This document shows positions 45,001 to 48,039 of a DNA stretch of 64,000 nt, one piece after another. A program made the translations under genes and the position numbers. The notes under the pieces were generated by a model, which saw only the letters and a program-made list of their open reading frames with translations, was not told the DNA's origin and did not search any database. Origin of the DNA: Melioribacteraceae bacterium (GTDB lineage Bacteria > Bacteroidota > Ignavibacteria > Ignavibacteriales > Melioribacteraceae); NCBI GenBank assembly GCA_016342755.1, contig JAEINS010000002.1, positions 1-64,000 on the forward strand. Reading direction: 5' to 3'. The stretch's first letter is position 1. Each line of letters begins with the position of its first letter.

Positions 45001-45862
45001 AATAAATATGTGGGATGGTTATAATGAATTTGTATTAAGAATTGATCATGATACAAATTTAGATGAAAATCCTGAACCTACTTATCCAATAAATGTTACT
45101 GGTATTGCTTCACAGTATAAATATGCTGAACCTTTTGAAGGCGGATATCAATTGATTCCTGCACAATATTCGGGTATAGCACAAAATGTTGCTTCAGCTC
45201 CAAATCCATATTTCTTCTATGATGCTGATACAAAGGCACTTGATGGACAAACAATTGAAATATTAAGCAACGAAGAAACATTAGTATTAGCATGGCATCC
45301 GGCAGTTGATCTTAATGGTGAAGATCTTCTTTATCAATTATTAGGAACATTTGGCGAAACTACACTAAACTTAACTGCCGATGGCGGTGGTTTAGATACT
45401 ACTTATACTACTACTGGTCAGGCATTAATTGCCAGCTTAGGCGGAAATGCTTCTGTAGAAGCACAGTTTGTTGTGCAGACTGTTTCTCTAAAGGGCGGTG
45501 CTCTTAGCGGTGAACCAATTGTAACTAGTGTTGATACATTGAAGTTTACTCTTGTTGATAAAGTAACTGGTATTGAAGATGTTAATCAAATTCCAGAAAC
45601 ATTCTATGTACAGCAAAACTATCCTAATCCATTTAATCCTGCTACAACAATTAAATTTGGATTACCTGAAGCTGCACAAGTTGACTTAAGAATCTATAAT
45701 ATTTTAGGTCAGGAAGTAGCAACATTAATTAGTAATGAAACTATGAATGCAGGACATCATTATAAAATGTTTAATGCTACTAAATTTGCAAGTGGTACTT
45801 ATATTTATGTATTGCGTAAAGGCAATGATGTTGTTTCTAAAAAAATGCTATTGATTAAATAA
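42020..45862 (+). CDS. Very large multidomain T9SS cargo protein with FG-GAP-like repeats
   Basis: 1280 residues. Signal peptide (ILSFLLALLLATNFIYA), then two near-identical blocks of FG-GAP/VCBS-type repeats (about 25-235 and 236-420; shared EIYAVNNNW, NTWPxL, DKDGKxExIWG). A second pair of blocks follows (about 480-640 and 690-850; LPLAGGRIYGGASGDLDNNG and GATKLTGGASGDIDGDTN). Next come an OB-like domain (about 875-985, TIIGVITTPN), an Ig-like domain, and a C-terminal T9SS domain (YPNPFNPAT). Asp/Asn/Gly-rich loops suggest calcium-binding beta-propellers. It probably decorates or modifies the cell surface. GGGGAGG precedes the ATG. Confidence 0.88.
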   Translation: MNRKILSFLLALLLATNFIYAQDQEFVRKAVIPVPDIENGGLGNVLSGLDIDGDGMQEIYAVNNNWNDSGQELIPSIYKYEYDGNDWVLVWKATPNIPAQNTWPILMSGDWDKDGKEEIIWGVVNNTSDSNPNPSRILVYEEAGDGSDNLGIADGDNWLPNASNPLTDKQKVNIRPFKAMLMDVDEDGTDELIFADRGGEFSFGVVSVDNIPDDGNGSEVWDIEVIGNELESFYRSAMIEVPENAGTAGFGNAVSGVDFDNDGNKEIYAVNNNWGDVGDELIPQIYKYENNGNGWEIVWQATLGVPLQNTWPALTTGDLDKDGKMEVIWGPVNYTDATSNPNPPRIVVFEAIGDSTDIMGVDDGLGGYKPNAEWPIVNVDMSNERPIRWHVADIDGDNTDEIVFGARAGDLRFGVVSVSDIPDAGDGSETWTLETSALDATLTVAGGTIYDIAILDNSLYLFHSTGDVTPVRYNSGTWTTDPIVVGGMPGGSWLSAEVVDLDSNGTKEMLVGSWSSGTDTQIYLLQEDGASLTTTPIAELPLAGGRIYGGASGDLDNNGLLDFVYSSRDSDPNGIVCRVEYLGGDITSTESYKTTVIDYDAPIAGGRWGTVNVANLDDDADDEILYTSTVGGAAPLVILDRTSMSGSKWDFAYMNEKFYFTSLSGTSIQSVKHTQFGWMLGSVQTLPIGGTFKSAQVADIDGDMTEEMVIADYYSGGIYLLQDKENSLEVSKIADAAPLGATKLTGGASGDIDGDTNIDFVFGSRDNIPNSSVYRIEYKGDGDITSMDSYELSVLDSSIVAVAGQIDAINVANVDDDGDLEIIYTGTPRGSDVIPIVILDLFRAVQKVSIADARIDSDNNFVPDLLDSSVTIIGVITTPNLQANSGDLGHYLQDETAGIFLFAPGDSTELAIGDQIQVTGKITQYSGLTEIVITSFDADAIKLGKGTVTPKEITVPELNTKGEMYEGSLVKIKGVAKMEGAKDWPQNATNSGTSINMWDGYNEFVLRIDHDTNLDENPEPTYPINVTGIASQYKYAEPFEGGYQLIPAQYSGIAQNVASAPNPYFFYDADTKALDGQTIEILSNEETLVLAWHPAVDLNGEDLLYQLLGTFGETTLNLTADGGGLDTTYTTTGQALIASLGGNASVEAQFVVQTVSLKGGALSGEPIVTSVDTLKFTLVDKVTGIEDVNQIPETFYVQQNYPNPFNPATTIKFGLPEAAQVDLRIYNILGQEVATLISNETMNAGHHYKMFNATKFASGTYIYVLRKGNDVVSKKMLLIK

Positions 45863-45885
45863 GCATTTTAATTCTTTTTATAAAG

Positions 45886-45916
45886 AGCCGATTGTGAAAA
45901 CAGTCGGCTTTTTTTA
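45886..45916 (+). terminator. Terminator after the large cargo gene
   Basis: AGCCGATTG (45886-45894) pairs with CAGTCGGCT (45901-45909) in a 9-bp stem with one G-U pair, followed by seven T. Confidence 0.92.
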
Positions 45917-46001
45917 TATCAATTAAAAATACTAATTCTTAGATATTTTCATTTTTTTTATTATTTTGCTGATATATTTCTTTGAATAATATGGAATTGG
46001 T

Positions 46002-46553
46002 TTGGATAGACAAGAAGAAATTAAGTCTTTAATAAGCTCGCTGGGAATTAAGCAGAGCTATATTGCAGAAAAACTGGGTATTAAAAAACAGACACTCTCC
46101 TATTTACTAAACGAAAGCACCAAATTTGATGATGAACTTTATGATAAGCTAAAAGAGATTATTGATGATTTTCAGTTTGAGTTTAGTTTTATTGGCGAAG
46201 AAAAAGACGATAATTATGATCTTTTTGATGAAGCAAAACTCCGCCTTGGTATTGGTCAGAGAATTAGAATGTTTGCAAAACGTAAGTATGGCACCTTAAA
46301 AAATCTTGCTGATGAAATGGAAATTTCTCCCCAACAGCTTCAGCAATATATTAGCGGTAAAAGAGAACCCGGCTCAAAAGTTCTTGTAAAACTGCTTAAG
46401 CTGGGATGTGATATAAACTGGCTGCTTGGCGGATCGGAATCTATTGAGTCTTACAGAATTTATAAATTGGAAACTGAAATTAAAAAATTTCATAGCGGAC
46501 TAGGACAAATAAACACAATAATAAATAAACTGGATTATCATAAACATAATTAG
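46002..46553 (+). CDS. Double helix-turn-helix (XRE-type) transcriptional regulator
   Basis: 183 residues with two XRE-type HTH domains. The first spans about 1-55 (IKQSYIAEKLGIKKQTLSYLL); the second spans about 85-145 (TLKNLADEMEISPQQLQQYISGKREPG, ending INWLLGG, the usual phage-repressor-type tail). Both lack a ligand domain. The start appears to be TTG (46002-46004); no in-frame ATG exists upstream before a stop, so ATT at 45996 is the only alternative. It converges with the PIPPI-repeat gene and is separated from it by a terminator. Target unknown. Confidence 0.82.
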   Translation: MDRQEEIKSLISSLGIKQSYIAEKLGIKKQTLSYLLNESTKFDDELYDKLKEIIDDFQFEFSFIGEEKDDNYDLFDEAKLRLGIGQRIRMFAKRKYGTLKNLADEMEISPQQLQQYISGKREPGSKVLVKLLKLGCDINWLLGGSESIESYRIYKLETEIKKFHSGLGQINTIINKLDYHKHN

Positions 46554-46560
46554 TAGTTAT

Positions 46561-46588
46561 AAAAAAAACTCCCTTGGCGAGGGAGTTT
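46561..46588 (-). terminator. Terminator between the HTH gene and the PIPPI-repeat gene
   Basis: AAACTCCCT (46566-46574) and AGGGAGTTT (46580-46588) form a 9-bp stem with a five-base loop; eight T follow on the minus strand, so it ends the PIPPI-repeat transcript. Read on the plus strand it lacks a T-run. Confidence 0.85.
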
Positions 46589-46634
46589 AAAAAGGGCTCA
46601 CTTTATTTAACTAACCGGGAAGAAACAAAACTTT

Positions 46635-46922
46635 TTACTTCAATAAATAGGCTGTTACATTATATATAAAATTTGATAACATATTAGTTCTAATTGGTGG
46701 TATTGGGTGAAATGACATTAGAACATTTGTTTTGATTGGAGGAATAGGACGAAACGAATCTAAACTTTTTTTAGTTTTAATTGGGGGTATTGGATGAAAA
46801 GATTTACTTACCTGAACACTTGACTTAGTATTGTCAAATTTTCTTTCAGCTTTGTTAACTCCGCTAAACGCCGCTAAAAATATTACAGTAAAAATTACAG
46901 TTACATTTATTGCTTTTTTCAT
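46635..46922 (-). CDS. Small secreted protein with three PIPPI repeats
   Basis: 95 residues, start at ATG 46922 (GGAG six bases upstream; an ATG at 46934 overlaps that site). Residues 1-21 form a signal peptide (VIFTVIFLAAFSG). The mature part has three copies of SF(H/R)PIPPI(K/R)T at 41-50, 56-65 and 70-79, about 14-15 residues apart, then a short hydrophobic tail. The repeats differ at synonymous DNA positions (for example CCA/CCT/CCC, ATA/ATT), suggesting selection on the peptide. I know no named family with this motif; role unknown. Confidence 0.75.
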   Translation of the reverse strand: MKKAINVTVIFTVIFLAAFSGVNKAERKFDNTKSSVQVSKSFHPIPPIKTKKSLDSFRPIPPIKTNVLMSFHPIPPIRTNMLSNFIYNVTAYLLK

Positions 46923-46987
46923 CTTACTCTCCATTAATAATTTTTACACAGAGTAAAACAAAGGATATGCCACAGCATTGTTTTAGC

Positions 46988-47014
46988 GTAAAGTATTGTA
47001 ATTTAAGACTTTAC
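46988..47014. promoter_or_regulatory. Inverted repeat upstream of the PIPPI-repeat gene
   Basis: GTAAAGT (46988-46994) and ACTTTAC (47008-47014) flank a 13-base AT-rich spacer, 66 bases upstream of the PIPPI-repeat start. Its arms and spacing would suit a dimeric HTH regulator; the double-HTH gene close by is a candidate. This is inference. Confidence 0.35.
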
Positions 47015-47248
47015 AACGACAATAGATTTTCGGGAATTAATTACTTATTGGAAAGTTAAATTTAAAGAAAAGTTTAAATTTGGCTGTATTATGAGAAATC
47101 AAGCTGAAATCAAACTAGCAATTTTTATTTACACTTCACTAATATTTACACTCATTTTTATTCTTCTATTTCACTTAACACTACTAATCTGCCCAAAAGT
47201 ACTACAGTTTAATGACATTGCATAAAAAAGGAAATAGTTATGGGAACG

Positions 47249-47497
47249 AATCACGGAAACACAGCCTGGAGCCGTTCAGAGCTCCATATAACCGGCTGCA
47301 AGAGCAGCACCGGGGAAATCCCGGCAATAGCCATGCACTTTCTCCTGAAGCTCTTGCAGAGAATGCTGCGACCCACGGATTTAATTTTAATCAGCCTAAA
47401 AATAATTTTTGTGCTATTTATTATAACGGTAAATAAAAAATCCAACTGTAAATACTAAAATAAGGTAGAGGATAAATCCAACTAAAGTATAATCCAT
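47249..47497 (-). pseudogene. putP: Decayed sodium:proline symporter (PutP/SSS family) 5' fragment
   Basis: A good Shine-Dalgarno site (GAAGGGG) and an ATG at 47497 open a 27-residue frame (MDYTLVGFILYLILVF, GFFIYRYNK) that ends in TAG at 47414-47416. Beyond the stop, other frames continue the symporter: HKNYF, then FLG (stop TGA 47391-47393), LKLNPWVAAFSARASGESAW, LLPGFP, and after a +1 shift near 47311-47315, GAALAAGYMEL, stop (47276-47278), TAPGC. These match the first two helices of SSS-family proline transporters (AxSxRASGESAWLLLGLPG). Only about the first sixth of a normal 500-residue gene is left. The GC-rich patch at 47240-47390 is explained by this remnant. Confidence 0.8.
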
Positions 47498-47565
47498 ATT
47501 CCCCTTCTCAGTAATTATAACATTCCAAAAGGGAAATAAGAATTATCCCGGAAATTTTCTAGAAT

Positions 47566-47853
47566 TTATTGAACTTCATCTTCTTCAATAATTTCTTCAA
47601 ATTCTGCATCTTTATCATCTTCAGTCCTAATTACTTCTATTTTGAAACTTGCAACTAATCCGGCTAAAGCACCAACAGCAGCTGCAATGGGAGCGGCAAT
47701 AACTCCTATAACACCAATTGTTAAAGGTATTTCAATGAAAGTTTTATCGTCTGCATCTTTAATAATAATTCTGCGTACATTTCCTTCATGAATAAGTTCT
47801 TCAATCTTCTTTAATAACTCTTTCCCTTTTACCTTAAATTCTTCAGTTTTCAT
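47566..47853 (-). CDS. DUF4342 domain protein
   Basis: 95 residues with the DUF4342 layout: N-terminal charged helix (FKVKGKELLKKIEELIHEG), a beta strand (RRIIIKDADDKTFIEIPL), then one membrane helix rich in glycine and alanine (TIGVIGVIAAPIAAAVGALAGLV), and an acidic tail. GGAGG lies seven bases before the ATG. The family is described only as unknown; a small membrane-associated regulator is likely. Confidence 0.85.
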   Translation of the reverse strand: MKTEEFKVKGKELLKKIEELIHEGNVRRIIIKDADDKTFIEIPLTIGVIGVIAAPIAAAVGALAGLVASFKIEVIRTEDDKDAEFEEIIEEDEVQ

Positions 47854-48039
47854 CTTTTCCTCCGTTAAATGATTTATACCTTAGATGTTAGAAGAATAGA
47901 TTTGTTCCGTTATTAATAATTATGTTTGTCGTGCATCTAATTTAATGAGATTGTCGGGGGAAAACAATGTACGATGTTTTGGGACTTCAGCGTTGCCCGG
48001 TCAACAGGCAAACTTACGATAAACTGTTACAGAAAAATC

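Follow-up and report, generated by a model that had tools for sequence, protein, structure and literature searches.

A probable small exported protein with three near-identical PIPPI repeats in a member of the Melioribacteraceae

Gene content of the locus

Analysis of a 64,000-nucleotide stretch of contig JAEINS010000002.1 from a Melioribacteraceae bacterium (GCA_016342755.1; hereinafter, the window) identified a short ORF that encodes a repeat-containing protein, P0001, with the sequence MKKAINVTVIFTVIFLAAFSGVNKAERKFDNTKSSVQVSKSFHPIPPIKTKKSLDSFRPIPPIKTNVLMSFHPIPPIRTNMLSNFIYNVTAYLLK (Table 1). The initial annotation had placed a 95-residue ORF here without giving its strand; the ORF exists and is read from the minus strand. 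It starts with the ATG at 46922, and an alternative in-frame ATG at 46934 would yield a protein longer by 4 amino acids. The gene is present in a single copy in the 4.73 Mb genome. A terminator-like hairpin lies 46 nt past the stop codon on the same strand, in agreement with the claim that the gene has its own terminator. Upstream, where a possible operator had been proposed, inverted repeats are indeed present in very AT-rich DNA. Perfect inverted repeats having 7-nt arms are more numerous than expected (6 observed vs 1.1 expected; reached in 3 of 200 shuffles), whereas the only one with 9-nt arms is reached in 12 of 200 shuffles, and the operator role remains putative.

Table 1. Features of the P0001 locus and its neighborhood (coordinates in the window).
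Feature	Coordinates	Strand	Details
Protein matching TIGR04183	40506-41945	plus
Protein matching TIGR04183	42020-45859	plus
XRE protein	46002-46553	plus	two HTH domains
Intrinsic terminator	46566-46588	minus	9-bp stem, 5-nt loop, T run; same hairpin in the centroid fold
ORF, exported repeat protein P0001	46635-46922	minus	95 aa; shuffle test and synonymous codon score
Predicted C-terminal helix	46641-46682	minus	MLSNFIYNVTAYLL, residues 81-94; AlphaFold2 single-sequence model, pLDDT near 90 across the 15 C-terminal residues
Repeat 3	46686-46715	minus	SFHPIPPIRT, residues 70-79
Repeat 2	46728-46757	minus	SFRPIPPIKT, residues 56-65
Repeat 1	46773-46802	minus	SFHPIPPIKT, residues 41-50
Putative signal sequence	46863-46922	minus	MKKAINVTVIFTVIFLAAFS, residues 1-20; KK, then hydrophobic stretch; inferred cleavage AFS|G
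Ribosome-binding site	46927-46932	minus	GGAGAG, 4 nt 5' of the ATG; read from the sequence
Inverted repeat, possible operator	46988-47014		GTAAAGTATT/AAGACTTTAC; 10-nt arms, 90%
Inverted repeat, possible operator	47058-47081		AAATTTAAA-6-TTTAAATTT; 12/200 shuffles have one as good
Decayed symporter-like gene, N-terminal part	47258-47497	minus	stops and frame changes

To the left of P0001 lie two genes for proteins matching TIGR04183, followed by a gene for an XRE protein; to the right, there are a decayed symporter-like remnant, a gene for a DUF4342 protein, and recX-like and recA-like genes, which we take to be recX and recA. The remnant, presumably of a symporter gene, coincides with a local G+C peak of approximately 47% and has a match in one of the 78 other family genomes, namely, a 475-aa ORF in another genus (L199:312-1739, minus strand), to which it is 73% identical at the DNA level along approximately 129 bases.

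The XRE gene is matched in 73 of the 79 genomes of the family set, which consists of 78 other genomes from 34 other genera and the genome analyzed here, the only one of its genus. The best matches in the 72 other genomes are 41-68% identical, and of the 29 other loci that were read, 27 have the gene next to a transporter ORF that we take to be of the MATE type. A PIPPI-repeat ORF was not seen beside the XRE gene in any of these 29 loci, and a six-frame scan of the XRE loci detected only single PMPPI, PMPPV or PVPPL words, in 6 of them. Because the gene is widespread in the family and has no neighbor of this kind in the loci read, it provides no evidence for a peptide-regulator pair, and we reject such a pairing: the XRE protein is a conserved putative regulator of the family and not a partner of P0001.

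Coding potential and strand

Several tests of coding potential were applied, and the P0001 gene is probably real. When the intergenic stretch 46555-47211 was subjected to first-order shuffling, 9 of 2000 shuffles contained an ORF of at least 95 codons in any of the six frames. The synonymous codon score of the P0001 frame, 0.348, resembles that of the genes of the window, whose 156 true-frame pieces average 0.326. The total codon score (0.103) exceeds the highest value (0.079) among 32 shadow ORFs located within genes, but ranks low among 36 long ORFs (range of 0.07 to 0.51).

On the plus strand, the frame in which third codon positions lie opposite those of P0001 reads LVLIGGIG, FVLIGGIG and LVLIGGIG across the copies. 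Because the third positions of the two frames face each other, the silent pattern described below cannot by itself choose the strand, and the codon scores of the facing frame are higher (total, 0.274 vs 0.101; synonymous, 0.396 vs 0.348). Among the 156 real-gene pieces, another frame outscores the true one in 6 cases for total and in 25 for synonymous usage, and an equally low true-minus-facing difference in total usage occurs in one. The excess may be due to amino acid composition, given that proline and histidine are uncommon. Alternatively, the plus strand could be the meaningful one, encoding either short peptides of hydrophobic character or an RNA that contains three blocks of ATTGGnGGnATnGG; seven consecutive codons are conserved at the amino acid level in that frame too, and both of its codon scores are higher, but it contains four stops in this stretch, two of them immediately behind a copy, and no in-frame ATG, and there is no Rfam match in the region 45800-48000, which makes this reading highly improbable. 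Because of these stops and the missing ATG, we retain the minus strand as the coding strand, a choice that is preferred, though not certain.

Selective constraint on the repeats

The initial annotation had described three copies of SF(H/R)PIPPI(K/R)T at a spacing of about 15 residues, which is what P0001 contains, the distances between copy starts being 15 and 14 residues. The copies differ at the amino acid level only by H/R and K/R replacements. Nine of the 30 aligned nucleotide columns are variable, 7 at third, 2 at second and none at first codon positions (hypergeometric P = 0.0017), so the copies differ mostly at silent positions, as originally claimed. A comparison of Ka and Ks between the repeat units, which had been proposed as a check, was performed with the NG86 method: dN is 0.046 for pairs 1-2 and 1-3 and 0.096 for pair 2-3, and dS is 0.57 for pair 1-3 and saturated, hence not computable, for pairs 1-2 and 2-3. 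When the same number of changes is placed at random, so few residue changes are obtained with P = 0.0007 for pair 1-2 and P = 0.002 for pair 2-3, whereas the result for pair 1-3 is not significant (P = 0.061). Conservation does not extend from the 10-mer to the spacers, which read KKSLD, NVLM and, behind copy 3, NML. The third-position drift and the restriction of residue changes to H/R and K/R, along with the ribosome-binding site, the oriented terminator and the long open frame, indicate that the repeat peptide probably was under selection, in support of the initial proposal.

Search for homologs

No homolog of P0001 was found in the 78 other family genomes: with E-values up to 10, matches were obtained in 24 of these (best E = 0.0106), at 33 places, 30 of them with a locus. 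All 30 loci were scanned for P(I/V/L/M)PP(I/V/L/M), and the ORFs were read in four (L004, L011, L027 and L029). L004, which reads SPIPPVKTKA, and L027, which reads nearly so, resemble the repeat because they are antisense to an acetate-kinase-like gene, presumably acetate kinase, and were rejected as relatives; the ORFs of L011 and L029 include no repeat protein like P0001. Likewise, no homolog was found in 390 further genomes of the class, a sample that partly coincides with the family set; 10 of these yield matches at E up to 0.01. The best of these, L064 (E = 1.7e-4), and L068 were rejected as antisense to an L7/L12-like gene, which we take to encode ribosomal protein L7/L12, and L070 as antisense to an acetate-kinase-like gene; six further matches lie within or opposite larger frames or contain stops.

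A search of the GTDB r220 contigs returned 117 pattern-matching stretches, none of which was confirmed as a homolog; the peptide words on which this search was based lie mostly outside the PIPPI core. The strict motif TTYNNNCCNATHCCNCCNATHNNNACN occurs only in the three copies, that is, in one of 79 genomes of the family and one of 164 genomes of the order, and the looser motif CCNRTHCCNCCNRTH is found at 27 places in the P0001-encoding genome, the three copies included, vs 6 when the motif was run backward as a control. A search for closely spaced pairs of PIPPI words detected 60 GTDB and 7 viral stretches. Both words are in one frame in 56 of these 67, including 29 PIPPIPPI simple repeats, and SFxPIPPIxT does not occur in any frame of the 67; because the first codon was fixed as CCA, this search samples only a part of the possible relatives. 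Four viral contigs (loci L134, L137, L138 and L139), as read, carry a 17-residue unit, LVNPIPPIMLLFLIQVE, in two or three tandem copies. None of the listed papers matching PIPPI-repeat peptides concerns such a protein, as judged from titles and the opening lines of abstracts.

Thus, the search for the protein and its motif in related genomes, which had been suggested in the initial annotation, revealed neither an orthologue nor conservation in the family, the class or GTDB r220, with the genus represented by a single genome, and because no homolog turned up in any genome searched, there is no independent evidence of conservation. The recX-like gene lies roughly 1.1 kb from P0001. It has matches in 74 of the 79 family genomes, with identity not exceeding 44% beyond its own genome; even the nearest of the searched genomes are therefore distant, and a 75-residue chain that evolves rapidly could escape detection.

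An intergenic repeat array and the possibility of a non-functional ORF

The class search also led to an intergenic palindromic array with a 42-nt period (L069:1498-1650, minus strand) in a genome from another family of the same class. The array reads GFYPIPPFVKGGMG, and its palindrome consists of CCCCCTTT with its complement. It aligns with P0001 at E = 0.004 in the genome search and at 8e-8 against the 1650-base locus alone; the alignment score of 71 is higher than that of any of 1000 shuffles (maximum of 60) in which the PIPP words, but not the period, were preserved. The best DNA match to the P0001 repeats is 17 nt long at 88% identity (E = 0.004 against 250 bases). The two arrays share the 42-nt period and the FxPIPP reading, but differ in the palindromic core and KGG, both present in L069 and absent in P0001; being a palindromic intergenic array, L069 was rejected as a homolog. 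Such an array can give rise to spurious predictions of small repeat proteins.

Accordingly, P0001 might not be a working gene but a young or drifting ORF in the intergenic stretch that separates the XRE gene from the symporter-like remnant, perhaps one that arose from an intergenic repeat array reading FxPIPPx by chance. The failure of all searches to detect a homolog, the decay of the symporter-like gene in the neighboring stretch and the L069 array with the same period are compatible with this possibility. Nevertheless, the P0001 array lacks the palindrome of L069, a search for perfect 6-nt inverted repeats with loops of up to 14 nt having found none, and its DNA has no second copy in the genome (the next match is 23 bp, E = 0.055). 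A dispersed palindromic intergenic repeat was rejected on these grounds. The third-position drift, the open frame, the putative signal sequence and the ribosome-binding site further argue against a non-functional ORF, which we consider possible, albeit unlikely.

Protein architecture

In agreement with the initial annotation, which named no family with this motif, P0001 has no family match in the libraries searched: no match was found at the cut-off in Pfam (best E = 0.18), at E up to 0.1 in NCBIfam, where the T9SS sorting domain TIGR04183 was absent as well, or at E of 1 in PHROGs, and no solved relative was found in the PDB (one match, E = 0.15). The N-terminus resembles a Sec-type signal sequence, suggesting that this small protein is exported, as previously claimed; the Kyte-Doolittle hydrophobicity over residues 7-18 is 2.77. 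The predicted mature chain of about 75 residues is basic, with 12 K+R, 3 D+E and no cysteine. In a single-sequence AlphaFold2 model, residues 7-30 and 81-94 form helices and the repeats are unstructured; the model, which rests on one sequence, has a mean pLDDT of 68.7 (59-65 over the repeats) and a pTM of 0.21. The predicted C-terminal helix has a hydrophobic moment of 0.32 and a mean hydrophobicity of 0.49.

Possible function of P0001

The succession of a putative signal sequence, a pro-region and three near-identical cores separated by variable spacers, in a protein with a basic mature chain, would fit a multi-copy peptide precursor, that is, an exported protein cut into three near-identical proline-rich signal or inhibitor peptides. 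Yeast alpha-factor and insect multi-copy proline-rich (antimicrobial) peptides are produced from precursors of this kind. Microviridin precursors with several cores are described as well (PMC5934393). P0001 resembles all these in combining a putative leader with several near-identical cores and variable spacers, but lacks conserved core flanks and a processing gene among its four scanned neighbors. Specifically, the flanks that a protease would need are unconserved (K, D and M before the cores; KK, NV and NM after them), and no peptidase, exporter or modifying enzyme was found among these neighbors, namely, the XRE protein, the DUF4342 protein and the two T9SS-sorted proteins. Because the core-flanking residues are not conserved, a peptide precursor is less likely than the docking protein discussed below, and we regard it as improbable. 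The specific possibility of an alpha-factor-like multi-copy signal or inhibitor peptide, encoded by a free-standing gene in a bacterium with T9SS-sorted proteins and no processing enzyme among the scanned neighbors, appears slightly less probable still; if true, a multi-copy secreted peptide would be of wider interest. Pro-Arg-Pro motifs are named for proline-rich antimicrobial peptides (PMC11678341); compared with these peptides, P0001 is similarly basic and proline-rich, but contains no Pro-Arg-Pro.

The explanation that we tentatively put forward, with somewhat less than even confidence, is that P0001 is encoded by a genuine gene of narrow distribution and acts as a multivalent docking protein, exported and extended in conformation. 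The signal sequence would carry P0001 through the inner membrane, and the mature chain, probably largely unstructured, would display the three SFxPIPPI(K/R)T copies as docking motifs separated by spacers of near-fixed length and free sequence, whereas the C-terminal helix may anchor the protein to the membrane or to a partner. Each of the copies would recognize one common partner, located in the envelope or beyond the cell, and the three-fold display would strengthen the binding by avidity.

The pattern PxxPx(K/R) is characteristic of class II SH3 ligands in eukaryotes. It is present in each copy of the P0001 repeat, as PIPPIK or PIPPIR (residues 44-49, 59-64 and 73-78), and the variation between the copies preserves it. 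P0001 differs from the SH3 ligands in that it is bacterial and probably exported, and the similarity is confined to the motif and does not imply homology.

Small exported proteins confined to a single taxon are frequently encountered but seldom understood. P0001 itself bears signs of selection at the peptide level, an advantage in the case of an orphan, and its 10-residue motif could be synthesized as a peptide to fish for the partner.
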